Source: a virus
Virus record (IMG/VR): IMGVR_UViG_3300028712_000009
Location: 1 to 32,521 of that record
Direction: 5' to 3' (one strand)
Length of the DNA stretch: 32,521 bases
This document shows, in pieces, positions 5,846-31,467 of this stretch (the first letter of the stretch is position 1; every line of letters starts with the position of its first letter). The position numbers and the translations under genes are program-made. The notes under the pieces were generated by a model, which worked only from the letters and a program-made list of their open reading frames with translations, had not been told where the DNA came from and did no database searches.

Positions 5846-7057
5846 ATGGCGGGCAATAGCCTCTTGACCATGAGTATGATAACGCGCGAAGCTGCGCGTA
5901 TCCTCACCAACAACCTCTGCTTTACCAAGCAGATCAACACCCAATATTCAGATCAGTTCGCCCGCAGCGGAGCGAAGATCGGCAGCGTACTGAATATCCG
6001 CAAGCCACCCAAGTACATCGGCCGCACGGGCCGTGTGTGCGCGGTTGAGGACGTGGTTGAAACGTCAGTACCGTTAGCCCTCACGACGCAATTCGGCGTG
6101 GACATGAGCTTCACCAGCGCCGAACTCGCGTTGAGCATCGACGACTTCAGCAACCGCATCCTGAAGCCCGCGGTCGCCGTAGTGGCGAATAAAATCGATT
6201 TCGACATGATGGGCCTGTACACATCGGTCCCGAACGTAGTCGGCACGGCCGGCGTGGTGCCGAATACGCTACTTACCTATCTGATGGCGGGAGTGGCTTT
6301 GGACGACAATATGGCTCCCAGAGACAATCAACGGGCTGTAGTCGTCAACCCGATTCAGCAGGCCACGATTGTCGACGCGCTCAAAGGATTGTTCCAAAGT
6401 GCGGATCAGATTGAGGATCAGTACGAAAAGGGCACGATGGGAATCACCGGCGGATTCAAGTGGTGCATGGATCAGAATACCCGCGTGCATACTGCAGGCG
6501 CGTACGGCGGCGCTCCTATCGTAGCCGGTGGCTCGCAAGTTGGCTCGACGCTCAACGTGTCAGGCTTCACCGCGGCCGCAGCGCCTCGCCTGAAGAAAGG
6601 CGACATGTTCACCCTTACCGGCGTTAACGCCGTCAATGGTCAGAACCGGCAGGATCTGGGCTATCTCCGCACCTTCACCGTAACCTCGGACGTCAGCTCC
6701 GATGCCGGCGGTCTGGCGGCGATCCCGATCTATCCGCCCATCACACCTACCGGCGCAAGCCAGACCGTGACCGCTTCCCCTGCAGCAGGCGCTCCGCTCA
6801 CCATGACGTTTGTCGCCAACTCCAAAACCGCGCAGGCGCTCGCATTCCACAAGGATGCCTTCACCTATGCCACGGCTGACCTACCCCTGCCCGATGGCGT
6901 GGACATGGCTTCCCGTGTCAGCGACTCGCAATTGGGTGTGTCGGTCAGGATGATTCGTCAATACACGATCTGCGACGACGCATGGCCCACGAGGCTCGAC
7001 GTGCTTTACGGGATAGCGCCCGTTTACCCAGAATTGGCATGCAGGATTATCAGTTGA
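5846..7057 (+). CDS. major capsid (coat) protein, P22 gp5 type
   Basis: This 403-aa protein fits the P22 coat family (P22 gp5 is 430 aa). The N-terminus (SLLTMSMITREAARILTNNL), the segment KIGSVLNIRKPPKYIGRTGR and the stretch SFTSAELALSIDDFSNRI are typical of the family. The middle region (GSTLNVSGFTAAAAPRLKKG, MFTLTGVNAVNGQNRQ) corresponds to the P22 inserted domain and its surroundings. A good Shine-Dalgarno (GAAGGAAAG) precedes the ATG. It forms the HK97-fold icosahedral shell. It follows the scaffold by 40 bp and precedes an unknown gene by 12 bp. Confidence 0.93.
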   Translation: MAGNSLLTMSMITREAARILTNNLCFTKQINTQYSDQFARSGAKIGSVLNIRKPPKYIGRTGRVCAVEDVVETSVPLALTTQFGVDMSFTSAELALSIDDFSNRILKPAVAVVANKIDFDMMGLYTSVPNVVGTAGVVPNTLLTYLMAGVALDDNMAPRDNQRAVVVNPIQQATIVDALKGLFQSADQIEDQYEKGTMGITGGFKWCMDQNTRVHTAGAYGGAPIVAGGSQVGSTLNVSGFTAAAAPRLKKGDMFTLTGVNAVNGQNRQDLGYLRTFTVTSDVSSDAGGLAAIPIYPPITPTGASQTVTASPAAGAPLTMTFVANSKTAQALAFHKDAFTYATADLPLPDGVDMASRVSDSQLGVSVRMIRQYTICDDAWPTRLDVLYGIAPVYPELACRIIS

Positions 7058-12105: not shown

Positions 12106-14772
12106 ATGTCTAACTGCGTACCGATTCCCGGACCTCCGGGGCCCCCCGGACCGACTGGGATTCCTGGGCCTATCGGGCCTATCGGACCCTCCGGCGGACC
12201 GATTGGACCGCAGGGGCCGAAGGGCGATACCGGAGCCACTGGAGCTACTGGAGCCACTGGAGCCACCGGCCCCGCGGGACCGCAGGGAAGCCCCGGACCC
12301 ACAGGCACAACCGGAGCCACCGGAAGCCCGGGACCGGCGGGAAACACCGGCACGCAGGGCGTCCCGGGACCTACCGGACCGGCTGGAATCGCGGGACCTG
12401 CGGGACCGGCAGGGCAGGGAATTCAGCTCAAGGGCAGCGTCCCCACGTTCGCGAGTTTACCGGCATCGGCCGCGCAAGGCGACTCCTGGACCACCACCGA
12501 TACGGGGCTTCTGTGGGTCTGGAATACCGGCACCGGCTGGGCGAACGCGGGCCAGATCCAGGGACCGGCAGGACCGCAGGGGAGCCCCGGATTGCAGGGT
12601 GTCCAGGGACCGGCCGGCGGCTTGGGGCCAGCCGGAGCGACTGGACCCGCTGGAGCGAAAGGAGATCCCGGACCCACCGGAGCAGCAGGGCCGAAGGGCG
12701 ATCCTGGGGCAACCGGGTCTACCGGAGCGACCGGAGCGACTGGATCGGCTGGCCCGAAGGGCGATCCCGGCAGTCCGGGCGCTACCGGGCCAACCGGACT
12801 CATCGGACCGCAAGGGCCCGCGGGGTCGGTCGGACCCGCGGGGCCGGCGGGGCCACCCGTCACGATGAAGGGCTCTATCCCCACGCTCGCCGAGTTGCCA
12901 ACCACAGGGGAACCCGGCGATGTGTGGTATGTCGAAGCCAACGGCAACCAGTACACCTGGGGCGATGCGGACGTCTCGCAGCAGATCGCTGCCGACATGA
13001 CGGGTACGCATGAAGGTATCCCGCATGGTGTGCCCGTAGACTACGAATGGCGGACCGCTCCATTTATAGTCATGGGGAATAACCCCGATGGAGCGACGGC
13101 TTGCAATCACTGGCTGAACGTCTACGCCGATACGACCAATGTCCACCCTGCCAACACCCGGGTACAGCTCCGCAACTGTCAGGTGTGGTGGAAGCGTGCA
13201 TCGACGGGTGTGTGGACGCGGGGAGTTCTCAGCAGCGCGCCTGAAGTCGAAGCGTATGCGGAGGATTACGTCTCCGGTGGGCCGTTCACCGCAGATCAGC
13301 GTACCGAGACGGACGGGAGCATCAGCGTCAAGCCCGCCACCGGACAGAATGTACACGGCTTTACGCCGTTCCCGCGAGTGCCGATCAGTGCAACCGATAT
13401 GGGCGGTATTGTGTCGGTGCTCGATGCCCGTCTCATCATGGCGAACACGGGGGGCACCGATGACCGTGCTTCGGCGCGGTATCTGGTCGAAGCGGGCGCG
13501 GATTATTACCCCGCGACCACGGGGCCGGGAATCGAAAATAACCCCGGCGTCGGCGGCGGCAAGTTCAAGTACGTTACGAATAACTGGCGTTCGTATTGCT
13601 TCAGCACGCTGAGCGCTGAAGAGCTTGAGGCGAATCCGCCGGCCATCACCTTAGCCACGGGCGGCACAGGCTGGATGGATGCAGGGCATATCCAAGGTCC
13701 CGCAGGCACTACCGGCCCGGCGGGGGCAGCAGGGTCCGCGGGGGCTGCTGGTGTGACGGCGCCGTTTCGCATGGGCTACGGCTGGACCGTCGTGGGTGCG
13801 GTGACCGCGGTGACGCTGCCGTCCCAGTTCGTACCGCTCAAAGCAGGTCAGTCAGCTTCTCTGGTCGGGCTGCGGTCGAAGCTTGCTTCCGGCACCAGCG
13901 TGGTTGCCCAGGTGCGGCGGAACGGGTCGAACCTCGGCAGCACGATCACGATCACATCGACCGCGGCGACCACTACGTTTAACCAGGCACTGACAGCGGA
14001 TGATGACCTCGGCATCGTGCTTACCTCGCCCACCGGGTCGCCCACCAGTCTCGGCTTGACGATGTACCTGGAGCTCACACCGGGCGCGCCGGCCAGCGGC
14101 TTTACGACGGATGCGGCAATGTGCGGCTACTGGTATATGGAAGAGGCAACGGCCGCTACCAGAAACGATGGCAGTGCGAAGCTGAACCACTTAACGCAAA
14201 CGAACGGTGTAGTGCAGAGCGCGACGAAGAAGCAGGGATCGTTCTCGGCAAGCTTTGCCAAGGCCTCTTCGATGAAGCTGGCGCGCACTGACGCCAATCT
14301 GTCAGCGGGTTTTCCAGGGAAGAGCGGAAGCGCGGCCCAGGACATGACGATGGGTTGCTGGGTGCAGATGGCAACCGTGGCTTCGAACATGTGGGCGATG
14401 GGTAAGGGCGAAAATTATGTTCTCTACTTCAACCCCACAAACAACAAGTTCCATGCGGAGTTATACGACGGCGGGACGTATAAGTCAGCGATCTCAAACG
14501 CGACACACAACCAGACGGCTACCTGGAAACACATTGTGCTTCGCTTCATGGGCACAACCACTAAGGAAATAGCCCTGTTCATGGATGGGGTGAAGCAATC
14601 GACGCCGCAAACAGCAGCAAGCGGTGTGCTTACTTCCGCTAACGATTTCTGTATCGGCTCGGCTTGGTACGGCGGAACTTATTGGGATGGATTGATAGAC
14701 GAGGCGTGGATCTTCAACCGGGCGTTGTCCGATGCCGAGATCCTGACTATTTTTACTTCGGGGCTGACATAA
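12106..14772 (+). CDS. collagen-like tail fibre with LamG C-terminal domain
   Basis: The 888-aa modular protein has collagen Gly-X-Y repeats at residues ~8-105 and ~152-251, with a short third run near 531-549. Between them is a compact module ([20 protein letters not shown] ... [15 protein letters not shown], 109-155). A second copy of that module (start [18 protein letters not shown] at 255) is interrupted by ~230 residues (~289-516) before it resumes at [16 protein letters not shown] beta domain follows (~552-660), then a LamG jelly roll (~670-888, ending [18 protein letters not shown]). Trimeric collagen stalks with C-terminal binding domains are typical of phage fibres. The inserted segment is probably another receptor-binding domain. 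Its family is unknown to me. Confidence 0.85.
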
Positions 14773-14775
14773 GCC

Positions 14776-16200
14776 ATGCCCATATCGCCTTTTAATCTCT
14801 GCGGTGGAACCGAGATCACCCGCGACTCGCTATGGTCCGCATCTCGGGTTTGCAATTGGTTCCCAATCGTAGACACCAGCGGCACCGCGCAGTCAAAAGT
14901 CGAACTCGCGCCGATTCCCGGCCTGCAAGTATTCACCACGTTGACCAACCCGCCGATACGCGGATTGTGGGCGGGGGATAACCGCTTATTTGCGGTAGCG
15001 CAAGGCGGCCTGTTTGAGATCTTTTCAAGCGGTGCAGCCACGGCGGTAACCGGTGGCGTCCTCAGCGCAGCAACGCCAGTGCAGTTTGCGGGCAACGGCC
15101 AGAGCCTGCTGATCGCGAGCGGCGATCAGATCTGGTTTGCAACCGGCGGCGTCAGTCACAAAACGTACGACGGGGCTTACTCGGTTGTCTACTTGGATGG
15201 GTATTACATCATCCTCCATGTGGACGGCCAGACCATTCAGATCTCGACCGATGGCTTGACCTGGGACCCGATCGATGTAGCGCAATCGCAGACCCAGATT
15301 GACCGCAAGGTACGTCTCGAGGCGCATGAGGGGCACCTGTGGATCTTCGGTCAACGCTCGATTAGTGTCTGGTACGACAGTGGGAACGCCGATTTCCCCT
15401 TCGCGCCGATCGACGGAGCCATGATCGATCAGGGCACGATGGCCCCGTGGAGTGTGACCCGAATCGACAGAAAGTTGTATTGGCTCGGGATGGACGAGCA
15501 CGGCTATGGACGCGTCTTTAGGACCGAAGGCTACACGCCGGTCCCGATCAGTAATCAGGCGATCGAATACCTGATTAAGGGCTACCTGGACTTGGGAACG
15601 GACCAGTGCATCACGGGTTCGGGATACACCGAGAACGGGCATACGTTCTATGTGCTGAGCTTCCCGAAGGCGAAAGCGTGCCTGGTTTATAACCTCTCGA
15701 CCAACATGTGGCACGAACGGGCACGGTGGAACGCGGATCACTGGGAGCACTGGCGAGGGGCTTCGTTCCATGCGTTCTGCTTCGGCAAGCATATCGTGGC
15801 GCGCACTTCCGAAGCACCGTTCCCGGATGGCGATCACACTAAGATCTACGAGCAGGGCCTGCACATCTACGGCGACGATGGGAATCGCATCCGCCGGTAT
15901 CGGGCCGCGCCTTACACGCAGGCGGATCAGCAGTGGTTGTTCCATCATTATCTGCGGTTATTGACCAGCGGCTCTAGTGCGGTGACGATGCGTTATCTCT
16001 ACGATGACAATACAACGTGGTCGAACGAACGGACAGTCGCACCGTTCAAGCACGAAATCAAGTACCGCAGATTAGGCAGGGCGCGGGACCGGATGTACGA
16101 GCTGTACCTGCTGGACTCCTTAACAGGATCTCAGGGCATCATCGAGGGCTATCTGCACCTAGCCGATCCCCCGCAGAATCCGGCGACTATCGCACGGTAG
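14776..16200 (+). CDS. packaged DNA stabilisation protein, P22 gp10 type
   Basis: This 474-aa product is almost the length of P22 gp10 (472 aa) and starts with the family-like CGGTEITRDSLWSASRVCNW. Beta-propeller-like repeats follow, such as GLWAGDNRLFAVAQGGLFEI, HEGHLWIFGQRSISVWYDSG and RIDRKLYWLGMDEHGYGRVF. In P22, gp10 is the hub that binds gp4 and closes the tail after packaging. It begins 4 bp after the fibre stop, so translational coupling is likely. Unlike P22, gp4 and gp10 are separated here by the methyltransferase, tailspike, second gp4 and fibre genes. Confidence 0.87.
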   Translation: MPISPFNLCGGTEITRDSLWSASRVCNWFPIVDTSGTAQSKVELAPIPGLQVFTTLTNPPIRGLWAGDNRLFAVAQGGLFEIFSSGAATAVTGGVLSAATPVQFAGNGQSLLIASGDQIWFATGGVSHKTYDGAYSVVYLDGYYIILHVDGQTIQISTDGLTWDPIDVAQSQTQIDRKVRLEAHEGHLWIFGQRSISVWYDSGNADFPFAPIDGAMIDQGTMAPWSVTRIDRKLYWLGMDEHGYGRVFRTEGYTPVPISNQAIEYLIKGYLDLGTDQCITGSGYTENGHTFYVLSFPKAKACLVYNLSTNMWHERARWNADHWEHWRGASFHAFCFGKHIVARTSEAPFPDGDHTKIYEQGLHIYGDDGNRIRRYRAAPYTQADQQWLFHHYLRLLTSGSSAVTMRYLYDDNTTWSNERTVAPFKHEIKYRRLGRARDRMYELYLLDSLTGSQGIIEGYLHLADPPQNPATIAR

Positions 16201-17408: not shown

Positions 17409-17451
17409 GGTACTTAACGTATTACTACATTTGTAGTTGGAGGGTTTATCT

Positions 17452-18429
17452 ATGGCTGATCCGGTATCGATGGGTTTAATGGCTGGCGGTGCGCTGGTTA
17501 AGGGCCTGGGCTCCTTCTTCGGTGGACGGGCGCAGAAGAACGCGACCAAACGCGCCGGCACCATCCTGCAACAGGGCTACGGCAACGAAGCGGCGAATGC
17601 ATTGCTGATGCCGGAGACGGTCAACCCCGGAATCAGCGATGCCTACCAGAAGGCGCAGGGGTATGTAGGCGATGTCTATAACCGATCTGGCGATGACCTG
17701 ATCGGGGCGGGACGGACAGCAAACGAATACCTGAACCCCTATATCGATGCCGGCGGCAATGCGCTGACGACTCTGAGTAGCCTCGCGCAGGCCCCGGAGG
17801 AGCGCTTCACGGGGACGAACCTCGAAATGGACCCTGGATATCAATTCCGCCAGGCGGAAGCTCAGAAGGCCATCGAGCGCAGCGCCGCCGCGAAGGGGAT
17901 CGGGCAGACTGGAGGGACGCTGAAGGCTCTGACGCGGTACGGGCAGGACATGGCCTCGCAGGAATACCAGAATGCGTTTCAGCGGAGTCTGTCGGGATTC
18001 CAGGCGAATCAGCAGGCGCGGCAGCAACGGCTCGGCACCCTCAGCAGTCTGGTGAATACCGGCTATGGCGCATCGGGCGCGGCGGGCGGGAATCTCATCA
18101 ACACCCAGCAGACCGCCGGGAACTGGCGTAACACCGCAGCACAACTCCAGGGCGGCTATGGGATCGATTCCGCAAACCGTCAGGGCGATATCGCTATGCG
18201 GTACGGCGACATGGCGCGCAACTTAAGACTCGGCGGGGTGCAGTCGGAAGCGAACAGCATCCTCGGTGTCGGGCAGGCAACCGCGGACCAGTGGAGCGGA
18301 GGAGCCGGAGCTCTCGGTGGCGGCATGCAGACCGCGGGCTTGATGAATATGGGTGGATGGGGTGGCTCCAGTCCGCAATCGGGTGGCTACACCTATGACT
18401 GGGCGACCGGCACCTATAGGAAGAGCTAG
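17452..18429 (+). CDS. putative DNA ejection/internal virion protein 1
   Basis: The ATG at 17452 is preceded by TGGAGGG at a good distance; an upstream TTG at 17437 is less likely. The 325-aa product begins with a small hydrophobic Gly/Ala segment (MGLMAGGALVKGLGSFFGG). It contains a recognisable phage internal-protein pattern (MDPGYQFRQAEAQKAIERSA, AKGIGQTGGTLKALTRYGQD). The C-terminus is Gly/Gln-rich and disordered. Position after the gp10-type and fibre genes matches P22 ejection genes 7, 20 and 16. The next gene is in the same frame after the TAG but has its own GAGAGGA ribosome site. Confidence 0.6.
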   Translation: MADPVSMGLMAGGALVKGLGSFFGGRAQKNATKRAGTILQQGYGNEAANALLMPETVNPGISDAYQKAQGYVGDVYNRSGDDLIGAGRTANEYLNPYIDAGGNALTTLSSLAQAPEERFTGTNLEMDPGYQFRQAEAQKAIERSAAAKGIGQTGGTLKALTRYGQDMASQEYQNAFQRSLSGFQANQQARQQRLGTLSSLVNTGYGASGAAGGNLINTQQTAGNWRNTAAQLQGGYGIDSANRQGDIAMRYGDMARNLRLGGVQSEANSILGVGQATADQWSGGAGALGGGMQTAGLMNMGGWGGSSPQSGGYTYDWATGTYRKS

Positions 18430-18438
18430 AGAGGAACC

Positions 18439-19863
18439 ATGGACCCCTCCGTACTTCTCAAACTTCGCTCCCCGCAATGGAGCGATCCACTAGACGACTA
18501 CTCGAAGCTGCAGACCCTGCGCCAGATGATGGACCAGAGACGCATCCGGGAGCAGCAATATCAATTGCAGCAACAAGCGATGCAGGAGCACGTCCGTAAA
18601 GCACAGTATGAGCAGGAAGACCGCCAGCGGGCGATGACTATACGCGAGTTGTTCGCGAAGAATCCCAATCCCTCCTTCCAGGACATTGCCGCTGTTGATC
18701 CCGCGACCGCCATCAAGCTCGATACAGATCGCAGGCTGATGCAGAGCGCAGCGAGCCAACAGGCGAAGGCTGCCCTGGACCTTCAAGGGGAACGCGCTAA
18801 GCGGGAAGCGAACACGTACGCGGCCGTCACCGCCTTGCCACAGGATCAGCAGCAGGATTGGTGGGATACGAACGTGGGAGGCGGTCTACCGGTAGACCGT
18901 CCACCCTCCGCACTTGAAGAGCAGGCGAAGTACGCAGAAGCCTACGGAGGAGAGGCTCTGCAGAAACGCCGGGATGCCCAGGAGAAGGCTATTCGGGAAA
19001 ACGCTCTATACGCAATCGATATCCCTAAACATATAGCGGAAGCCAAAACGGCTCAGGATAAAGCAGAAGGCAAGGAACCGCCCACTGGCAATCTTGCGTA
19101 CTTCACAAAGACCTGGTATCCCAACTGGCTCGATACTAACAAGCTTCCGAAAACCGCAACGAATGAGATAGCCGCATACAAAGAGTTTCAGACCCTTGGT
19201 CAGCGTAGCGATGTGTTATCGCCGGAAGCAGAAGCACAAAAGATCCGGATGTCACAGGCAGGCAAGTCCGCCGCTGACACTTCCGGCTTGGTCGATGCAG
19301 TCATTCAGAATCCAGCCCTCTACGACAACCTGACACCGACAGCCAAAACGGCTATTGGTCCGAAGTTGGTGGAACGTGGATTTACCGGCTTCGGGAAGCC
19401 GCTCTCGGAAGGTGCGATTACCAAACTGTCAGAGTCGCGGTCCGCGATCGCCTCTCTCAAGGATCTGCGTGAGGTAGTTAAAGCCAACGAGCAGTACATC
19501 GGCCCCATCGCGGGATTTGCGGCTTTGAATCCCTACCATCCCGCCCGCAAAGCACAGGCCGATATTGACCGCGTCCGTCAGCGTGTGGGTAAAGCTCTCG
19601 AGGGGGGCGTGCTTCGGAAAGAGGACGAGGAGAAGTATAAGAAGATCCTCGCTACCTTGCAGGACGATCCCAAGACCGCAATTTACAAGATTGATCGGTT
19701 AGGCGAAGATCTCGCCCGCGATATCGAGATCTTCAGCAACGAGCAGAAGGCAGCAGGACGCCGCGTGGAATCGTCCGCGCAGCCGGCGCAATCTTCCAGT
19801 GTTCCCAAGGTGGGCGAGAGCTTCAACGGCAAGAAGGTGACCAAGGTAACGAAGGTCCAGTAA
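18439..19863 (+). CDS. putative DNA ejection/internal virion protein 2
   Basis: This 474-aa product is helix-rich, with a Gln-rich coiled coil at residues ~30-75 (QLQQQAMQEHVRKAQYEQED). It later has helical stretches such as LSESRSAIASLKDLREVVKA and ADIDRVRQRVGKALEGGVLR. The C-terminus ends in a Ser/Val/Lys-rich segment (PKVGESFNGKKVTKVTKVQ). No enzymatic motif is seen. Between two other candidate ejection genes, a role in genome delivery across the envelope is inferred. Start ATG follows GAGAGGAACC; stop TAA is 2 bp before the next ATG. Confidence 0.6.
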   Translation: MDPSVLLKLRSPQWSDPLDDYSKLQTLRQMMDQRRIREQQYQLQQQAMQEHVRKAQYEQEDRQRAMTIRELFAKNPNPSFQDIAAVDPATAIKLDTDRRLMQSAASQQAKAALDLQGERAKREANTYAAVTALPQDQQQDWWDTNVGGGLPVDRPPSALEEQAKYAEAYGGEALQKRRDAQEKAIRENALYAIDIPKHIAEAKTAQDKAEGKEPPTGNLAYFTKTWYPNWLDTNKLPKTATNEIAAYKEFQTLGQRSDVLSPEAEAQKIRMSQAGKSAADTSGLVDAVIQNPALYDNLTPTAKTAIGPKLVERGFTGFGKPLSEGAITKLSESRSAIASLKDLREVVKANEQYIGPIAGFAALNPYHPARKAQADIDRVRQRVGKALEGGVLRKEDEEKYKKILATLQDDPKTAIYKIDRLGEDLARDIEIFSNEQKAAGRRVESSAQPAQSSSVPKVGESFNGKKVTKVTKVQ

Positions 19864-19865
19864 CT

Positions 19866-20213
19866 ATGCCAAAGGAAAAGTACCGCATCGAGACAGACGA
19901 CGGCTCGGTCTACGAGATCGAAACGGACGATGCTCAGTCGCAACAACCCGCAGCAGTAGCCGCAGCGCCGCAACAGCAGTCATACCCGGAGATGGCTGGG
20001 CAATTCGCCACTGACGCACTCCAAGGGCTGAAGGCAGGCGCACTCTCGACGATCTACCACGGGGGCGACCTCGTACGCCGCGGAACGGAAGCGGTGGTGG
20101 GTCCGGAATGGGCCGCCAGACTTGGCATGGAGAACAAACTCGACAAGCCAGAGGTGCGTTCAGTTATCACTCCGCCCGAAAGCACCGCAGGACAACTCGG
20201 CTACGGTGCGTAG
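19866..20213 (+). CDS. N-terminal part of amber-split ejection protein
   Basis: The 115-aa product begins KYRIETDDGSVYEIETDD, continues through a Gln/Ala linker and ends at GQLGYGA followed by TAG (20211-20213). The frame is the same as the 402-aa ORF at 20217, with only TAG and one Lys codon between them. No ribosome binding site is visible before the second ATG, and the segment KMGEFFIPAGAVGKA reads as a direct continuation. The intact protein would be ~519 aa. Either a nonsense mutation, a sequencing error or amber readthrough is possible. It overlaps nothing else and follows ejection candidate 2 by 2 bp. Confidence 0.6.
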   Translation: MPKEKYRIETDDGSVYEIETDDAQSQQPAAVAAAPQQQSYPEMAGQFATDALQGLKAGALSTIYHGGDLVRRGTEAVVGPEWAARLGMENKLDKPEVRSVITPPESTAGQLGYGA

Positions 20214-20216
20214 AAG

Positions 20217-21425
20217 ATGGGCGAGTTCTTCATACCTGCGGGTGCAGTCGGTAAGGCGGCAAAGGCAGTCGAAGGAGCAACCGCTGGGATGCGTGGCGCT
20301 GGGGCTCTCAACTTAGCAGCACGCGCAGGACTCGAAGGAGCTGCAGCCGGTGGCGTGGCTGGTGTGCAGACGGCCGGCGATCCCAACGCCATGCGGGAAG
20401 CGGCCCTGACTGCAGGTGGCGTGACCGCAGGACTGGGCGCAGTAGGAATGGCAGCTAGGCCTGTGGCGGATTTGCTGAAGCGCTCTGCCTTGACGCAATA
20501 CGGCCGCGTGCTTAATCCGACAAAGCAGGCAACGAAGTATCTATCGCAGACTCAAGTCGCACCGGGGTTGCTGGAACGCGGCGTGATGGCCGGCAGCATG
20601 AAGACGCTGCAAGGCAAGGCAGGGGCGCAAGTTCAGAAGTGGGGTCAGGCCATCAGTGACGCCTGGTCTAACGTTCCCGCGGGAACCTCGATAGAACTAG
20701 GCCCGGTAATGAATAACCTCGATCAGTCATTGGATGATCTCTTTGTTACGACCTCACGCGGCAAGGCACCCAAAGGTCCGTTCGCAGAGCAGGCTGCACA
20801 AAATGTCGACAAACTCAAACAGACACTCTCGGATGTTGCCGAAGTCAACCCGGCAACGGGAGTTCCCGAAATCCCGGTAGATCGCTTGCGCGAAATGCGG
20901 CAATACTTCGATGACATCGCCGCGCAGGCTGGCCGCTATGACGGGAAGACGCTTGCAGAGAAGAGTATGGCTGAGGCTCACGGACGGGCCGCCGATGCGA
21001 TCCGCGAAGAGCTGGCGCAGCAGTTTCCGGATATCGCGAAGATCAACAAGGAATACAACTTTTGGAAGAACGCCAGGCAAGTTGTCGATGAAACCGTGCT
21101 GCGGAGAGAAGGACAAGCCAAGCCGCTCGGGCGAAAGCTGGTATCGGCGGCTGCTGCTGCCGGGGGAGCTGCACAGTATGGTCCCCTTGGAGTGCTGCTA
21201 GGGAAGGCCGCTGGCGATCAGTTTGAAGCTCTGGTAACCGGCCCAGCGTGGGGAACGGTCAGCGCGGTACTCAAAGACCGGCTGGCCAATGCTATGGCTA
21301 AAGGGAACAGCGGAGAGATCGAGTTCTATCTGCGGAAGATCCTGGGGGCAGCAGGAGGAGCGAAAGCCACGGTCCCGGCATCACTGCAATTCAGCCCACC
21401 CGCTAAGGTTTCTTCCGCTCGTTGA
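20217..21425 (+). CDS. C-terminal part of amber-split ejection protein
   Basis: This 402-aa ORF continues in frame after the TAG at 20211-20213. The N-terminal ~110 residues form Ala/Gly-rich hydrophobic helices (GAGALNLAARAGLEGAAAGG, VTAGLGAVGMAARPVADLL), compatible with membrane interaction during ejection. The middle (VDRLREMRQYFDDIAAQAGR, EELAQQFPDIAKINKEYNFW) is helical and resembles C-terminal regions of phage virion proteins described as internal or ejection proteins. The last part is Ala-rich (AAAAAGGAAQYGPLGVLLGK). Its 3' end overlaps the convergent membrane-protein gene by 23 bp. It is the last plus-strand late gene before the minus-strand block. Confidence 0.65.
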   Translation: MGEFFIPAGAVGKAAKAVEGATAGMRGAGALNLAARAGLEGAAAGGVAGVQTAGDPNAMREAALTAGGVTAGLGAVGMAARPVADLLKRSALTQYGRVLNPTKQATKYLSQTQVAPGLLERGVMAGSMKTLQGKAGAQVQKWGQAISDAWSNVPAGTSIELGPVMNNLDQSLDDLFVTTSRGKAPKGPFAEQAAQNVDKLKQTLSDVAEVNPATGVPEIPVDRLREMRQYFDDIAAQAGRYDGKTLAEKSMAEAHGRAADAIREELAQQFPDIAKINKEYNFWKNARQVVDETVLRREGQAKPLGRKLVSAAAAAGGAAQYGPLGVLLGKAAGDQFEALVTGPAWGTVSAVLKDRLANAMAKGNSGEIEFYLRKILGAAGGAKATVPASLQFSPPAKVSSAR

Positions 21426-21750
21426 CGAGGCAATACTTCACGCCCAGGAGCAGCGGCGTCATGGCATACCAGACAATGCTCTTGATCTGCGCGTCAGACC
21501 GCGGCGAGGGATCGAAGATACACCACGCAAAGTAGGTCATCATCCAACAGAAGCTCACGGCTAGATAGACCTGCCGGGACCACTCCTGACTCAGGATAAG
21601 TTCTGACAGCCTCCACAGACAAAAGCCTAAGATCAGCGCCCCGAGCACGGCCCCGTTATCGAACAAGCCCATCCGATTCGCTATGTAGAGACAGACAGTC
21701 AGGAACAGCGGATACCAGATGTACTCGAGTATCCGCAGGACGATCCGCAT
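21403..21750 (-). CDS. multi-pass membrane protein, holin candidate
   Basis: The 115-aa product has three or four hydrophobic helices: YIWYPLFLTVCLYIA, GAVLGALILGFCLWRLSELI, VYLAVSFCWMMTYFAWCIF and a shorter WYAMTPLLLGVKY. It ends in a basic tail (NERKKP), which fits a class I-like holin topology but is not diagnostic. Its ATG directly follows the stop of the secreted repeat protein (TAAATG on the minus strand), so the two are probably co-translated. It converges on the late operon. No endolysin was recognised nearby, so a lysis role is an inference. Confidence 0.6.
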   Translation of the reverse strand: MRIVLRILEYIWYPLFLTVCLYIANRMGLFDNGAVLGALILGFCLWRLSELILSQEWSRQVYLAVSFCWMMTYFAWCIFDPSPRSDAQIKSIVWYAMTPLLLGVKYCLVNERKKP

Positions 21751-22104
21751 TTACCAGGACCAGTCAGAACAGCATTTGGTGCTGAGAGACGGCAACGACG
21801 ACCAGGATGGCATGGTGGAATACGTCGACCGCGGCGCCACGATGACCGGTGCGGTGGTGGTGTAGGGATTGGTTGCGCTGTAGGACGAATAGGGCGAGCC
21901 ATACGTGCCGTACGGGTTGTTGATGGAGTTCTGGCTGTACGGGCTGCCGTACTTTCCGTAGGGGTTTGAGACGGAGTCCTGATCGTATGGATTAGCGGAC
22001 AGTTTGCCGAGATATACGCCTTTGCCATCGTTGGAATAAAGGCGTGGTGCCTGCTGCGCGAACGCAGCGGCGGTTAGTAATATTGCCGAAATGAGGAGTC
22101 GCAT
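21751..22104 (-). CDS. secreted NPYG/SPYS-repeat protein
   Basis: The start is the ATG at 22104, because it begins a clear signal peptide (MRLLISAILLTAAAFAQQ); an upstream in-frame extension to 22221 would bury it. The mature part has repeats of the type NPYGKYGSPYS, NPYGTYGSPYS and NPYTTT, as in small periplasmic or secreted proteins of Gram-negative bacteria. Two Cys lie near the C-terminus (KCCSDW). Length is 117 aa. A short Shine-Dalgarno (AGGAG) sits close to the ATG. It may be a host-derived passenger gene. It is followed without a gap by the membrane-protein gene. Confidence 0.65.
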   Translation of the reverse strand: MRLLISAILLTAAAFAQQAPRLYSNDGKGVYLGKLSANPYDQDSVSNPYGKYGSPYSQNSINNPYGTYGSPYSSYSATNPYTTTAPVIVAPRSTYSTMPSWSSLPSLSTKCCSDWSW

Positions 22105-22299
22105 GACTCCTATCGTGACAAGTGTGTCTACTCGTCGTCTATGGTCTTTTAGTACCCAAACCCCGCCGTTTCCCCATCCAAACACTCGCCTGATATCACT
22201 CCCCACATACCCCGCCGTCACACAGAAACACCCCTAGAACGCATCGCGTTGCCGATGAGTCCCAAACCCACGCGACCCGCAGGAGAATTGCGTCTTGGC
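22105..22299. other. non-coding gap upstream of the secreted-protein gene
   Basis: This 195-bp gap lies between two minus-strand gene blocks and probably carries the promoter of the 22104-21403 pair. It is C-rich on the plus strand. I see no convincing -10/-35 pair, terminator or structured RNA. Confidence 0.35.
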
Positions 22300-22518
22300 T
22301 TATTTCTGTCCGTTCACGGGCACTTTGGCGCAGCCCTTATGTGCGCATAGCGTGTCGTCTCGCTCGAGATACCACTGACCCGGTTCGATGTCGAGCGCAC
22401 AGAGCATGCAGTAGCGTTTGATCCGCACGCCGGCATGTTTCAAGTGGGCGTCCGCAAAGCTGGCTACGGTTTGCAGCCGGAGGAACCGCGTCAGTTTCTC
22501 GGCGTCGTCGCCATTCAC
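22300..22518 (-). CDS. small CxxC protein, 72 aa
   Basis: The start is GTG at 22518, sharing bases with the TGA stop of the preceding gene (GTGA overlap). The longer frame from 22779 is antisense noise against that gene. A helical N-terminus (DDAEKLTRFLRLQTVASFAD) is followed by a metal-site pattern YCMLCALDIEPGQWYLERDD and then CAHKGC. This parallels the upstream neighbour (CVLCGMPIRPGDTF ... HESC), so the two look like paralogues with C-x-L-C ... I-x-P-G. Function is unknown; it is the last gene of the early operon. Confidence 0.6.
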   Translation of the reverse strand: MNGDDAEKLTRFLRLQTVASFADAHLKHAGVRIKRYCMLCALDIEPGQWYLERDDTLCAHKGCAKVPVNGQK

Positions 22519-22745
22519 AGGCTGGTCTTCAGGCAGGATTCGTGGGAACGGTGGCGGTAGCCGGCATCCCGGAACGTGTCGCCGGGACGGATCGGCATGC
22601 CGCACAACACGCACTCGGCGGGTCGGGTCAGGCGGGTGGCGCGTTTCACGGCGCCGGATTCGAGTTTGGTGCGGAGGAGCTGTTTGTGGAGGGCGCGGTA
22701 CTGCTGGTAGGCCAGCTCCGCTTTCTTGTTGATCGGAATTACCAT
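22515..22745 (-). CDS. small CxxC protein, 76 aa
   Basis: The ATG at 22745 overlaps the stop of the upstream gene (7-bp overlap). The basic helical N-terminus (KKAELAYQQYRALHKQLL) is followed by CVLCGMPIRPGDTFRDAGYR and then HRSHESCL. This gives a C-x2-C ... H-x2-C zinc site of treble-clef type. Overlapping starts and stops on both sides place it firmly in the early operon. It is related to the next gene. Nucleic-acid binding is possible but not shown. Confidence 0.62.
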   Translation of the reverse strand: MVIPINKKAELAYQQYRALHKQLLRTKLESGAVKRATRLTRPAECVLCGMPIRPGDTFRDAGYRHRSHESCLKTSL

Positions 22746-22900
22746 CTCTGCGCTTTCGCCCACTCGACCAGGTCGGCATCGACAGGTTTGCCGTGCCTCA
22801 CGTCTGCGAGGATACAACGGACGGTCAGTTTCCGCCAGAAGATCCGCCGCTGTTCCTGCTCGTACTCACGGTGGCGTTGGGGTTGGATGGATTTGTTCAT
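22739..22900 (-). CDS. small helical protein, 53 aa
   Basis: The start chosen is the ATG at 22900, because the upstream extension to 22975 would overlap the preceding gene, whose stop is at 22905. The 53-aa product is basic and helical (PQRHREYEQEQRRIFWRKLT, then HGKPVDADLVEWAKAQRW). It has no recognised domain. It lies 4 bp after the preceding stop and overlaps the next gene by 7 bp, so it is very likely translated as part of the operon. Confidence 0.55.
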   Translation of the reverse strand: MNKSIQPQRHREYEQEQRRIFWRKLTVRCILADVRHGKPVDADLVEWAKAQRW

Positions 22901-22904
22901 ATTT

Positions 22905-23150
22905 TCACGCGTACGGCATAGGCCACGGAATCTCGCCGGCTTCCATGAGGTGGTAGCGGGCCTCGATGCGTTCAACTCCCAGCGACTCGACCAGGTACTC
23001 GGAGACAGCTTTCACGAACTCAGCTTCCGGCCGGCGCAGGTACTTCCGCTGAAGTTTCCGGATGTGTTGTGCATGCTCGCCGGTCAGCAGCGAGATCGCC
23101 GCCATGACACGGCACGGGTCGAGAAAGTAGTGCCCTACCTCCGGATCCAT
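22905..23150 (-). CDS. hypothetical early protein, 81 aa
   Basis: The ATG at 23150 follows GGGAAAGGT and gives a 16-bp overlap with the upstream gene. Longer starts at 23171 and 23246 are possible but overlap more. The product (DPEVGHYFLDPCRVMAAISL ... HIRKLQRKYLRRPEAEFVKA, then VERIEARYHLMEAGEIPWPM) is helical with a basic middle. No domain is recognised. Position within the replication operon suggests a DNA-metabolism accessory role. Confidence 0.55.
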   Translation of the reverse strand: MDPEVGHYFLDPCRVMAAISLLTGEHAQHIRKLQRKYLRRPEAEFVKAVSEYLVESLGVERIEARYHLMEAGEIPWPMPYA

Positions 23151-23344
23151 ACCTTTCCCGTCCCCTCGCATACCTGACACGGGTACCTCCCCGCCGTCGA
23201 GTTCGTGATTCCCGTCTGGCAATACCTGCAATTTGTTTCCTGCCATTTCGCTATTACCTCCAGTGCGTAGAGTTGTTCTTTGTCCCCGAACCGGGGACGC
23301 TCGGCTAGGACTCGTAAGGCTGCGGCGACTTCAGGAGGGGTCAT
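23135..23344 (-). CDS. zinc-ribbon protein, 69 aa (DnaJ-type CxxC)
   Basis: The ATG at 23344 lies inside the 3' end of the upstream gene (14-bp overlap). A short helical N-terminus (PPEVAAALRVLAERPRFGDK) precedes a zinc-knuckle pair: NCRYCQTGITN ... YPCQVCEGTGKV. The CxxCxxG spacing recalls one repeat of the DnaJ zinc domain. It is too small for an enzyme. It neighbours another protein with the same kind of motif (23331-23621). Confidence 0.6.
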   Translation of the reverse strand: MTPPEVAAALRVLAERPRFGDKEQLYALEVIAKWQETNCRYCQTGITNSTAGRYPCQVCEGTGKVWIRR

Positions 23345-23621
23345 GGTTTGTCCTTCGCCGCAGTAGATCTTCGAGGTCCGTCTGATTCCGAATCCGGCGC
23401 AGTCGGTCTTCTTCGGGATCGACCGGGGGGATCTGTGGTTTTTGGGGAACCGCTTTTTGCAAGGCATCCTTGCGGATCCGGCGGACACTGAATAACGGCC
23501 GGCAGTATTTCCAGGCCCACTCGCCGTTCGGACAGTCGCAGGGCTGGTAACCGGTGGGCGTCTCCTTGAGGCCGGTCCCGGCGCAAACACTGCAACGCTG
23601 TTTCCAGCGGTCGTCGCTCAC
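23331..23621 (-). CDS. zinc-ribbon protein, 96 aa
   Basis: The start is GTG at 23621, sharing the GTGA sequence with the stop of the upstream gene. The N-terminal ~35 residues carry RCSVCAGTGLKETPTGYQPC followed by DCPNGEW, a CxxCxG ... CxC zinc ribbon like those of DnaJ. The C-terminal half is charged and helical (EEDRLRRIRNQTDLEDLLRR). It may bind nucleic acid or a replication partner. It is a typical small early-operon phage gene. Confidence 0.6.
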   Translation of the reverse strand: MSDDRWKQRCSVCAGTGLKETPTGYQPCDCPNGEWAWKYCRPLFSVRRIRKDALQKAVPQKPQIPPVDPEEDRLRRIRNQTDLEDLLRRRTNHDPS

Positions 23622-24181
23622 TGGGTTTCCGTTAGCTTCTTTAATCCGAGTTGGAGTTCAAGGTCGGCAAGGAGGCGCGCTGTTTCCTCCTCTGAACGCC
23701 GTTTGTTCTGGGCGAGCTGCTCGTTGAGTTCAGCTTCCGCCTCACGCAAGGAAGGGATTCGCTTTATCGGCTTCGGTGGAGGCGTGGGATCCGTAGCCGG
23801 AGGAGGAGCAGGAGGGGCGTCGCCAGGTATGCGCTTGAACGCATCGGAGGGAATCGGGAAAGGCTCCGGATCGCCAGAGCCTAGGAGCTTCGCTTCTTTC
23901 TTCCACTCTCGAAGCTTGCGTTCCTGCTCGAGGGTTTCGCGTTCGTAAAAGAGGCGCTCGGAAACAGAGGTCCGGAGCAAGAGGAACTCCGGCAGCGACC
24001 AGCGGCGCATCGTATCGCAGGCGATCCGTACCAGGCTTCTCAACTCGTCAGTGCCGAAGACATGGCGTTCGATCGAATCCTGGACTACGTCGAGTCCCAG
24101 GGGGTCTGTCGGGAAGTAGTCGATACTTGCCCCCATCACGGCCAGGGCTCGCGCTATATCTTTCGGAGTCGCCCTGGTCAT
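23618..24181 (-). CDS. hypothetical early protein, 187 aa
   Basis: ATG at 24181 overlaps the stop of the replication-initiator-like gene by 4 bp (ATGA). The N-terminal half is helical (TPKDIARALAVMGASIDYFP, LRSLVRIACDTMRRWSLPEF). A Pro-rich linker (PPAPPPATDPTPPPKPIKR) is followed by a charged coiled coil (SEEETARLLADLELQLGLKK). The layout of a folded domain, linker and helix suggests a helper or adaptor for the upstream gene, perhaps a helicase-loader-like function. No motif supports an enzymatic call. Confidence 0.6.
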   Translation of the reverse strand: MTRATPKDIARALAVMGASIDYFPTDPLGLDVVQDSIERHVFGTDELRSLVRIACDTMRRWSLPEFLLLRTSVSERLFYERETLEQERKLREWKKEAKLLGSGDPEPFPIPSDAFKRIPGDAPPAPPPATDPTPPPKPIKRIPSLREAEAELNEQLAQNKRRSEEETARLLADLELQLGLKKLTETQ

Positions 24182-25395
24182 GGCTTCCCCTCTTCCCGGG
24201 CAAAGACGCGCTCGAGGTGAGCCTTCATCGCGGCATCGGCTTTTTCTTTTTGTGTCGGCGGCCGTGCGGGAGCAAACTTACGGGCTGTAATGGGCTCTGT
24301 ATCCCAAATCTGACTATTTAGGTATTTCAGCGGGTCCGTTACAAACGTGGGGTCATCCCACTTCTTCCCTTGGGACCGGATAGTGACGTCATCGATGATG
24401 CGCTGTTGCGTTTGGGGGGGGTAGCGAAAAAACGACTGACGACAGGCGGCAATGCGGGGTACGCTGACGGGCCGGCCGCAACCGTCCATGAGGAAACAGA
24501 AAACCTCAAAGAGTTTGTGCGCTGGGTCTTTGCTGACGACTACCGCTGTTACTGGTTCCGGTTGGGGTTTAGGGATAACTGCTGGAGGGGAGGGGGGGAA
24601 GTATTTGGGTTGTTCCGGTTCCTCTACACTACTAGTAGCTTTTACGCCCCCCTCTGTCACGCCGTATATATCTTCTAATTCTTCTAATTCTTCTTCAATA
24701 AGGATAGGCCCACTGAAAAGTGCATTTTCCGCTACCTGCTTGTAGCGACTTTGTAGCTCTGCCAGGTCTTTTTTATAGTCCTCGCTAAGGCTTTTCAGCC
24801 GTTCTACCGTTGTAGCGGAATTCGCTACATCCTGGCTTACATGTTCTGGGCTTTGGAGGATCTTACGGAGGAAAGGAGGGAGAAAAGTGTAAGCTAGATT
24901 GTAGCGAATTTTGCTACATGCTTGCTTACTCTTTGTCTCGGCGGCGAGCCGCTTTGGATCGAGAACAGGATACCAGACTTTTTCGGGATCGTGCTCCTCA
25001 AGACAACCTTGGCTGATCAGTTTGCGGATGGCTCGGGAGACATGGATGCGGTTATGGCCTGGAGTAAGCCCTAGGATCTGGAGTAGGTGCTTGACCCGCA
25101 GCGGGTATATCTGGCCCTTCTCGTCCGTTACCAGGCGCCCGAGGTCTTCCTTTCTGCCGCTTTCTTTACGCAGAAAGCAGCCCTCTCTAACGTCCGGGCC
25201 GCATGCGCTCGACAGGATCAGCGCCCAGTACACCCGGTCTGTCAAGCATGAGGCAGTAGCTATCTTGTGAAGTGCAAGCTCGCGGGATAGGACCGCGTAG
25301 GATTTAAAGTCATACTTTTTGCGGAGATCCACGTAACCGGGATCTGCTACGCTCTGCTGATTTTGTAAGATAACTGTCGTTCCCAACGCCAACAC
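24178..25395 (-). CDS. replication-initiator-like protein
   Basis: GTG at 25395 opens a 405-aa frame; no better start is visible upstream. Residues ~98-140 look like a winged helix (VKHLLQILGLTPGHNRIHVS, RAIRKLISQGCLEEHD), as in phage replisome organisers. A coiled coil (~195-230), an acidic segment (EEELEELEDIYG) and a Pro-rich linker precede a C-terminal domain (KLFEVFCFLMDGCGRPVSVP ... KKWDDPTFVTDPLKYLNSQ). The DNA of the middle part carries repeated TGTAGC sites in all reading frames and an AT-rich stretch, as expected for an origin inside the initiator gene. It heads the early operon after a 43-aa leader ORF. The protein family is inferred, not recognised by a signature. Confidence 0.6.
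   Translation of the reverse strand: MLALGTTVILQNQQSVADPGYVDLRKKYDFKSYAVLSRELALHKIATASCLTDRVYWALILSSACGPDVREGCFLRKESGRKEDLGRLVTDEKGQIYPLRVKHLLQILGLTPGHNRIHVSRAIRKLISQGCLEEHDPEKVWYPVLDPKRLAAETKSKQACSKIRYNLAYTFLPPFLRKILQSPEHVSQDVANSATTVERLKSLSEDYKKDLAELQSRYKQVAENALFSGPILIEEELEELEDIYGVTEGGVKATSSVEEPEQPKYFPPSPPAVIPKPQPEPVTAVVVSKDPAHKLFEVFCFLMDGCGRPVSVPRIAACRQSFFRYPPQTQQRIIDDVTIRSQGKKWDDPTFVTDPLKYLNSQIWDTEPITARKFAPARPPTQKEKADAAMKAHLERVFAREEGKP
24414..24421. repeat. homopolymer run of eight G within the initiator gene
   Basis: Eight consecutive G (plus strand) lie within codons near the 3' end of the 24178-25395 gene. The frame is intact in this copy. Such tracts are prone to slippage or base-calling error. 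Confidence 0.6.
24660..24930. other. candidate origin: TGTAGC repeats next to AT-rich stretch
   Basis: Inside the initiator-like gene are TGTAGCG-GAATT-CGCTACA (24811-24829) and TGTAGC-GAATTTT-GCTACA (24900-24918). Single copies lie at 24731 (GCTAC), 24741 and 24752. On the coding strand these repeats fall in different reading frames, so the conservation is at DNA level. An AT-rich run with tandem TTCTAATTC lies next to them at ~24664-24700. This matches the lambda O or replisome-organiser layout with the origin inside the initiator gene. Confidence 0.5.
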
Positions 25396-25534
25396 CCAAT
25401 CCGGCGCAAACGCGCCACCGCAGCTAAAAACTTGCAGTTGAGGATTGACTGGCTGGAAACTTATGTGAGAATAAAGCCAGTACTAGCTCAACTGGTACGT
25501 CCTCCCTTCTTTGGGCTCGTAACTTGTCGCTGCT

Positions 25535-25666
25535 CTAATGTTTTCCAGGCACAGGCAGCAACGAGTTATTTTCCATCGGAGGGGGCCTTTCTAGACCCTG
25601 CTGAACTGGCCGCCGCCGGTCCGGATTCAAAGTCGACATCTTTGCATTAGCCACAGTTGACCCCAT
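25535..25666 (-). CDS. 43-aa leader ORF upstream of the early operon
   Basis: ATG at 25666 is preceded on the minus strand by a perfect TTAGGAGG, ten bases away. The 43-aa product (GSTVANAKMSTLNPDRRRPV ... NNSLLPVPGKH) is Pro/Arg-rich and matches nothing I know. The stop is TAG at 25535-25537. It lies 140 bp upstream of the initiator start. The strong ribosome site is the main support. It could be a real small protein or a regulatory leader peptide. Confidence 0.4.
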   Translation of the reverse strand: MGSTVANAKMSTLNPDRRRPVQQGLERPPPMENNSLLPVPGKH

Positions 25667-25751
25667 AGTTTGTTAACCTCCTAACGAACGTTGTAGCCTT
25701 TTGGGTACTTTTAGGCGATTCCCCTTCGGCTTTGGAATTGTGATCCTGAAT

Positions 25752-25770
25752 GTTTGAGGCGTCCTCAAAC
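25752..25770. promoter_or_regulatory. inverted repeat GTTTGAGG-CGT-CCTCAAAC, operator candidate
   Basis: Perfect 8-bp arms with a 3-bp spacer lie between the divergent early operon and integrase 1, 4 bp before the integrase ATG at 25775. It may be a repressor site or a hairpin that blocks integrase translation. The symmetry is unusually good for chance. Confidence 0.5.
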
Positions 25771-25774
25771 GCTC

Positions 25775-26749
25775 ATGGAATTTCATCAGCAACAACTCCC
25801 CCTGTTCGCGGATGCTTTCACAAACGAGAATCATCTGCTGCGGGAAAGTCTGCACTTTGCGGAATCGATCCGCGCGCCCCGTACCTTGCAGGGCTATTTG
25901 AGCGATTGGAAAACCTTTTGCCTGTGGTGTGCCAAGGAAGGGAGGGAAGCCCTTCCCGCCACCACCGACACCGCGAAGCTCTACATAACGGACTCGCTGC
26001 TTCACAACAAACGCGTCAGCACCCTGCGGCACCATGTCTGCGCGATCATCCATCACCACCGGTTGGCGGGATGTATCGAGCCTTCGCGCCGGGAGATTCT
26101 GACGATCCTCACCGGAGCACAAAGGATTCGGGGCGAACAGATGCGGGGCAAGGCGGCGATCACCGTCGAGCAGCTCCGGATGATGGTGTGGAGCATCGAC
26201 CGCCCGGAGCCTGCGCGCACCCGCGACCAGGCCGTTCTGTTGGTCGGCTTTACGTCGGCTCTCCGGCGATCGAACCTCGCGACGTTCACACTCGAGGACG
26301 TGGACTTCCGGCCCCAGGGTTTTGTCATTCACATCCGGAAAGAGAAGCAGGACCAGACCGGGATCGGCCGCTATATCGGAGTCCCTAACGGCAAGCACGC
26401 AGACACTTGTCCCGTCCAAGCTTTGAGGGCTTGGCTGACCTACCGCGGCGTCACGCCGGGGCCGGTCTTCTGCGGAATGCGGGCGTCGAAAATCAACCAC
26501 GCGAAACCTATCCACACGAACACGCTGGCAATGATTGTCAAGAGAGGCGCAGAAGCGCTCGGCCTGGATACAGCCGAGTACGCGGCGCACAGCTTGCGAG
26601 CAGGATTTATAACAAGTGCTCTGGAGGGGGGCGTGGGAGAGATTGTGACCGCACGGCATAGCGGACACCGGTCGCTCGGGACGTTGAAACGCTACATGCG
26701 GTCGGAGGACCCGTTCCGGGCGAACGCCTGCTCTGCTCTGGAGCTTTAG
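25775..26749 (+). CDS. tyrosine recombinase/integrase 1
   Basis: The chosen ATG at 25775 gives 324 aa; a TTG at 25754 is an alternative. The N-terminal SAM-like domain (LLRESLHFAESIRAPRTLQG, YLSDWKTFCLWCAKEG) is followed by the catalytic domain. Catalytic residues are Arg164 (SALRRSNL), probable Lys191 (RKEKQDQ), His272-x-x-Arg275 (AHSLRAG), His298 (SGHRS) and Tyr307 (LKRYMR). All are in family order. The protein mediates site-specific integration or excision. It diverges from the early operon and is followed by a structured non-coding stretch that could hold its attachment site. No Shine-Dalgarno is visible. Confidence 0.9.
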   Translation: MEFHQQQLPLFADAFTNENHLLRESLHFAESIRAPRTLQGYLSDWKTFCLWCAKEGREALPATTDTAKLYITDSLLHNKRVSTLRHHVCAIIHHHRLAGCIEPSRREILTILTGAQRIRGEQMRGKAAITVEQLRMMVWSIDRPEPARTRDQAVLLVGFTSALRRSNLATFTLEDVDFRPQGFVIHIRKEKQDQTGIGRYIGVPNGKHADTCPVQALRAWLTYRGVTPGPVFCGMRASKINHAKPIHTNTLAMIVKRGAEALGLDTAEYAAHSLRAGFITSALEGGVGEIVTARHSGHRSLGTLKRYMRSEDPFRANACSALEL

Positions 26750-30289: not shown

Positions 30290-30628
30290 ATGCTCATTCA
30301 CACAGAGCGCACAATTGCGCGGAAGACGCCGGTGTACGACCACGCCGATAAACTGCTGTACCAGGCGGACCGGGACAAGGCGCGTGAGTTATTAGCGCGG
30401 TCCGACGTCGATATCATCGGCACCAACACACGCATCAAGGCACTGCGCTACCGCGGCCCGGACCCAGCCCACAAAATGGGCGGCTCGCATCACAAACGGG
30501 GAGTCGGCGTACCCCACCGGAATGAGAATTATTACAACGTCCGCGGGTGCTGGCACCTCGACAGAATCCCGGTAGCGTACCACCCGCACTTCATTGCAAT
30601 TCTGACGGATAGATTGGTATTGGTATGA
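30290..30628 (+). CDS. hypothetical protein, 112 aa
   Basis: The product has a charged helical middle (YHEADKLL-like: YDHADKLLYQADRDKARELL) and His-rich stretches (DPAHKMGGSHHKRGVGVPHR). No recognised motif is present. It comes after the terminator and has no ribosome site in front. Its stop overlaps the ATG of integrase 2 by 4 bp (ATGA), so the two are probably co-translated. Confidence 0.5.
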   Translation: MLIHTERTIARKTPVYDHADKLLYQADRDKARELLARSDVDIIGTNTRIKALRYRGPDPAHKMGGSHHKRGVGVPHRNENYYNVRGCWHLDRIPVAYHPHFIAILTDRLVLV

Positions 30629-31467
30629 CTTCCTCCCAGCACTGGGACGAGCTCCAAAGGCAATGGCTACACGGCAGGGCCGAGAGCACGCAAGGCACAT
30701 ACGGGACAACGATGGCAGATTTCCGGGCCTTCATCAAAGACCGTCCGATCCGGAAGGTGGACCTGAAGTTATTGCAGGACTACGTCGACAGTACGCACAA
30801 GAAGCAGCGGACGGTACGCCGGCAGGTTTCGACCGTGCGTTCGATCTTCAAGTTCGCGGAAGAAATGGGCCTCATCAAGTACAATCCTGCGAGAGCGTTA
30901 CGCGCCCCGAAAGTGCCCAATGGTGTCGCGTCGAAGATCCTCGAGGCGAAGCAGATTCTTGCCATGATCGCGCAAGAGCCGAACAAGCGGAACGCGGTGC
31001 TGCTCCGGGTGCTGTACGCTGCGGGCCTCCGGGCCTCGGAAGCGGCGTCTCTCTGTTGGGAAGGGGTCCAGCCCCGCGGCGAGAAGGGGGGCCAGATCAC
31101 GGTACTCGGCAAGGGCTCAAAATCGAGGACAATTCTGCTCTCTCACAAGACCTGGGACGCAATATTATCGATAAAGCCCGCGGACGCAGACCCTAAATTG
31201 CCGGTCTTTTTATCCCGCGAGGGGGAAAAGAAACCGCTCAAGCGCACCACGATTAGCAATATTGTCGGGGCCGCAGCCCGAAGAGTGGGCATAACTTTAA
31301 ATGTCTCCGCACACTGGATGAGGCACGGACATGCAACGCACGCACTGGATAATGGCGTGCCATTACTGGTGATTTCCCAGACACTGGGGCATACCAACAT
31401 CGCAACCACCAACAGTTACCTGCACGTTCGGCCCAACGAATCCTCCGCGACAGGCCTAGGTGTCTAG
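30625..31467 (+). CDS. tyrosine recombinase 2, XerC/D-like
   Basis: This 280-aa protein has an N-terminal core-binding region (TQGTYGTTMADFRAFIKDRP, VSTVRSIFKFAEEMGLIKYN). The catalytic set is complete: Arg136 (GLRASEAASL), Lys163 (GKGSKSR), His230-x-x-Arg233 (AHWMRHGHA), His256 (LGHTN) and Tyr265 (NSYLHV). It is XerC/XerD-like in size and spacing. A dif-like inverted repeat with a 6-bp spacer follows at 31491-31516. It overlaps the upstream gene by 4 bp. It is a second recombinase beside integrase 1 and could act in integration, dimer resolution or inversion. Confidence 0.9.
   Translation: MTSSQHWDELQRQWLHGRAESTQGTYGTTMADFRAFIKDRPIRKVDLKLLQDYVDSTHKKQRTVRRQVSTVRSIFKFAEEMGLIKYNPARALRAPKVPNGVASKILEAKQILAMIAQEPNKRNAVLLRVLYAAGLRASEAASLCWEGVQPRGEKGGQITVLGKGSKSRTILLSHKTWDAILSIKPADADPKLPVFLSREGEKKPLKRTTISNIVGAAARRVGITLNVSAHWMRHGHATHALDNGVPLLVISQTLGHTNIATTNSYLHVRPNESSATGLGV

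Follow-up and report, generated by a model that had tools for sequence, protein, structure and literature searches.

IMGVR_UViG_3300028712_000009, a linear IMG/VR virus record of 32,521 bases that was analysed over its whole length (hereafter the window), carries a 115-aa and a 402-aa ORF that share a common frame and are separated only by TAG AAG, after which ATG at 20217 follows (Table 1). This arrangement raises the question of whether a single gene has been cut by an in-frame amber codon and, if so, whether that stop is a device of the phage or a private change of one contig. The initial annotation had described two ORFs in one frame with TAG plus one codon between them, which we confirm at 20211–20216. 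Its statement that the second ORF has no visible ribosome site also holds, as no Shine-Dalgarno motif stands ahead of ATG 20217, where the upstream letters read ...CTCGGCTACGGTGCGTAGAAGATG.

The gene content around the split frame places it in a recognizable setting. The window encodes a P22-type portal (2356–4446; Pfam PF16510, E=2.7e-185) and a P22-type coat (5846–7057; Pfam PF11651, E=1.5e-41), together with gp10-like (phrog_578) and DNA ejection (phrog_598) genes, and is therefore, by its gene content, a P22-like podovirus. The integrase (PF00589, 30625–31467) suggests that the phage is probably temperate, and two scans of genome contigs returned no prophage relative. Positions 12106–14772 encode a tail protein with collagen repeats and, at its C-terminus, a LamG-like domain (PF01391, PF13385). 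A three-gene cassette ends with the split gene, after which minus-strand ORFs come next in the ORF list of the window.

Table 1. Features of the window that bear on the interrupted frame
Feature	Position	Strand	Basis or mark
Head-closure gene, gp10-like, phrog_578	14776..16200	+	stop TAG
Cassette gene 1, DNA ejection protein, phrog_598, E=5.9e-18	17437..18429	+	PHROG match
Cassette gene 2, 474 aa, without family match	18439..19863	+	ORF list and PHROG/Pfam searches
Cassette gene 3 (gp16 position of P22-like phages), frame interrupted once	19866..21425	+	one open frame in relatives; gene order
5' fragment, 115 aa, ends in in-frame TAG	19866..20213	+	ORF list
Amber codon seen in the window alone; GAG (Glu) in every relative found	20211..20213	+	sister contig, nine loci
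3' fragment, 402 aa, stop TGA; ATG is an internal Met, no conserved start	20217..21425	+	ORF list; relatives
Second private window base in the split gene, residue 170: Ala in the window, Gly in 9/9 relatives	20374	+	relatives
Tyrosine integrase	30625-31467		PF00589

Relatives of the split gene were gathered by scans that used the neighbouring genes or a family alignment. One uninterrupted ORF of 496–570 aa is present in each of the nine relative loci, which encode eight distinct proteins with 29–99.6% identity to the window protein, in agreement with the original proposal of one gene cut by an in-frame amber. Alignment of both ORFs against full-length homologues, a check that had been suggested together with that proposal, runs unbroken across the stop, so the split frame is no product of chance. 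All nine loci have GAG at the site, a count that has to be read with the composition of the sample: one of the two family-scan patterns includes the Glu, so that scan favours sense-codon relatives, whereas five relatives were found independently, through genes nearby or through other regions of the protein. Neither CAG nor AAG, the sense codons put forward earlier, occurs at the site in these relatives. In alignment A1 of the family the Glu is invariant; in the relatives it is followed by KM, QM, QT or QG, the opening Met of the 402-aa ORF corresponding to Met, Thr or Gly. The stop is thus missing from all relatives and sits at an invariant Glu codon.

These comparisons bear directly on two readings in which the stop would have a function. 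In the first, two separate genes are present and translation of the second begins at ATG 20217 through coupling with the stop, an arrangement for which TAG AAG ATG, with its start three bases past the stop, would be suitable; yet both parts are fused into one ORF in all relatives, and the Met is neither conserved as a start nor preceded by a ribosome site, leaving this reading extremely improbable. In the second, programmed stop-codon readthrough lets one gene yield two products, one short and one long, as might be suggested by two long frames with just one in-frame stop between them. However, a programmed signal is expected to be conserved, and no stop is found at the site in any relative, not even in the one whose protein is 99.6% identical, so readthrough is unsupported. 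The local readthrough offered by the initial annotation, at odds also with the use of TAG as an ordinary stop, is accordingly given a similarly minute chance.

The closest comparison comes from a sister contig, IMGVR_UViG_3300027743_000075, located by a scan of IMG/VR. Across 18511–26543 (8.0 kb, split gene included), the window and the sister differ at five bases: 20211, 20374, 22342, 22381 and 24659. The sister reads GAG at 20211–20213, and its ORF is open for 519 aa. Within the split gene, 20211 and 20374 are the only differences; they lie 163 bases apart, both at positions that are otherwise constant. At 22381 the odd one is the sister rather than the window, and polarity could be assigned neither at 22342 nor at 24659. 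From sister to window, 3/5 changes are G-to-T (or C-to-A), a pattern that would fit oxidative damage, although five events, only some of them polarised, are too few for this to carry weight.

Beyond this stretch, the two contigs form a mosaic. From about 11.5 to 15.7 kb the window is essentially identical to the sister except for a gap at the collagen-repeat region, where the alignment breaks at 12634–12842 within the tail gene. Between 15.72 and 18.51 kb, which holds the end of the gp10-like gene, a minor tail gene and the first ejection gene, the two are clearly divergent, whereas from 18.51 to 26.54 kb they are five bases apart, making sharp mosaic boundaries. Recombination of co-occurring phages or assembly chimerism could account for this pattern.

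TAG is otherwise used as a terminator in the window. It is the terminal codon of several other ORFs, for instance the gp10-like gene at 14776–16200, whose homologous end, at one and the same place, is TAG in four relatives as in the window, and TAA or TGA in others; the homologues of the split gene in loci L079, L083 and L084/L085 also end in TAG. A globally amber-recoded genetic code, for which nothing beyond the single codon speaks, would be marked by many internal TAG codons and by avoidance of TAG as a terminator, but just one internal TAG is present and TAG is terminal in several ORFs; the chance of such a code is practically nil, as the initial annotation had anticipated from the normal use of TAG elsewhere. 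Given the one-ORF relatives with GAG and the role of TAG as terminator, the readthrough, recoding and two-gene readings were rejected. A stop-conflict scan against 169 non-overlapping relative ORFs, of which 121 match the window, found, apart from 20211, no conflict in the frame of a likely gene; the remaining conflicts lie, in our judgement, in antisense frames, in shadow frames or ahead of a start codon.

A further reading is suppression, in which the amber allele would be genuine and kept by a host amber-suppressor tRNA, the full-length protein being made by suppression. The host could carry such a suppressor, and past the stop the frame stays open with hardly a change relative to the sister, an observation for which a very recent stop accounts just as well. 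A look for a suppressor tRNA in phage or host had been suggested; ours, covering the phage side, found no tRNA gene either in seven relative loci or in the window, where part of the genome may be missing. Moreover, one gene alone is affected while TAG ends many others, and the near-identical sister has a sense codon. We therefore regard suppression as very unlikely, and its narrower form, a real TAG allele maintained in a phage or prophage of an amber-suppressing host with the ejection protein made only there, as slightly less likely still.

What the split gene encodes is suggested by its place. It is the third gene, after the phrog_598 gene and the 474-aa gene, as a gp16-like position requires, and the third of three consecutive genes is the place of gene 16 in P22 (order 7-20-16). 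Phage DSL-LC05 shows the same gene order, and its third gene is one ORF annotated as a putative DNA transfer protein. By contrast, the protein itself has no usable named homologue in Pfam, PHROGs, PDB or the INPHARED phage collection, its PHROG matches being weak, undescribed and to single family members only, and AlphaFold with six sequences gave a model (pLDDT 45, pTM 0.32) too poor for testing the fold. The label 'ejection protein' given initially thus follows from the place of the gene after one with a PHROG 'DNA ejection' match and not from similarity of the protein sequence; we refer to the product as a putative ejection-type (gp16-position) protein on the basis of that position. In IMGVR_UViG_3300048687_000060 (L036:10517-12031), the third ejection position holds a different protein of 504 aa with no detectable similarity, while identity is 94% in the gp10-like and 82% in the first ejection protein; a cassette swap is possible from this comparison.

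P22 offers a useful parallel. Like the split gene, P22 gp16 is encoded third in gp7-gp20-gp16, behind a gp10-like head-closure gene, and the sizes are similar, 519 aa for the split gene and 609 aa for gp16 (PMC8954989); the split protein, however, has no match in Pfam, PDB or the phage collection. In published accounts, P22 depends on its ejection proteins for infectivity (PMC8954989) and deleting any one of the E-protein genes is lethal (PMC4992974); earlier E-protein genetics worked with nonsense and ts mutants (PMC4992974). In the classical amber mutants of P22 ejection genes, a single stop codon likewise shortens an ejection-type protein, but those are laboratory mutants, whereas the stop in the window is known from a single contig of a metagenome and may reflect a base error.

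Taken together, the GAG codon in the relatives, the use of TAG as an ordinary terminator and the lack of tRNA genes or of any other stop conflict in the loci searched argue that the stop is private to this contig. With high confidence, we interpret TAG at 20211–20213 as a one-base change private to the contig, within a gene whose uninterrupted form codes for a protein of ~519 aa, and explain it by a nonsense mutation of recent origin or by an incorrect base in the consensus; of the options first listed for the stop, these two both stand and local readthrough falls away. The stop is neither programmed nor conserved. As written, translation would halt after residue 115, at the cost of 78% of the protein; the C-terminal fragment could at best arise via re-initiation at the ATG three bases past the stop, ahead of which no ribosome site is seen. 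Any effect on the virion is one that we infer.

Between the two forms of the private change, a consensus error or non-propagating variant has a slightly better than even chance, and a real nonsense allele in one phage or prophage lineage, for example a decaying prophage, a chance just short of even; this division is our judgement rather than a computed value. The slight lean to an error or dead variant arises because the second private change also falls at a residue for which all nine loci have Gly. In addition, a random wrong base gives a stop with fair ease (about 147/520 codons in the split-gene frame are one substitution short of one), while a selected phage should rarely carry one in such a gene, given the lethal deletions described for its P22 counterparts.

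For annotation, the locus calls for caution, as gene callers would list a pair of short proteins in place of the single ejection-type protein of ~500–570 aa that the phage group possesses. More broadly, the comparison outlines a small family, unmatched in the libraries searched, that occupies the third ejection position in environmental P22-like phages.
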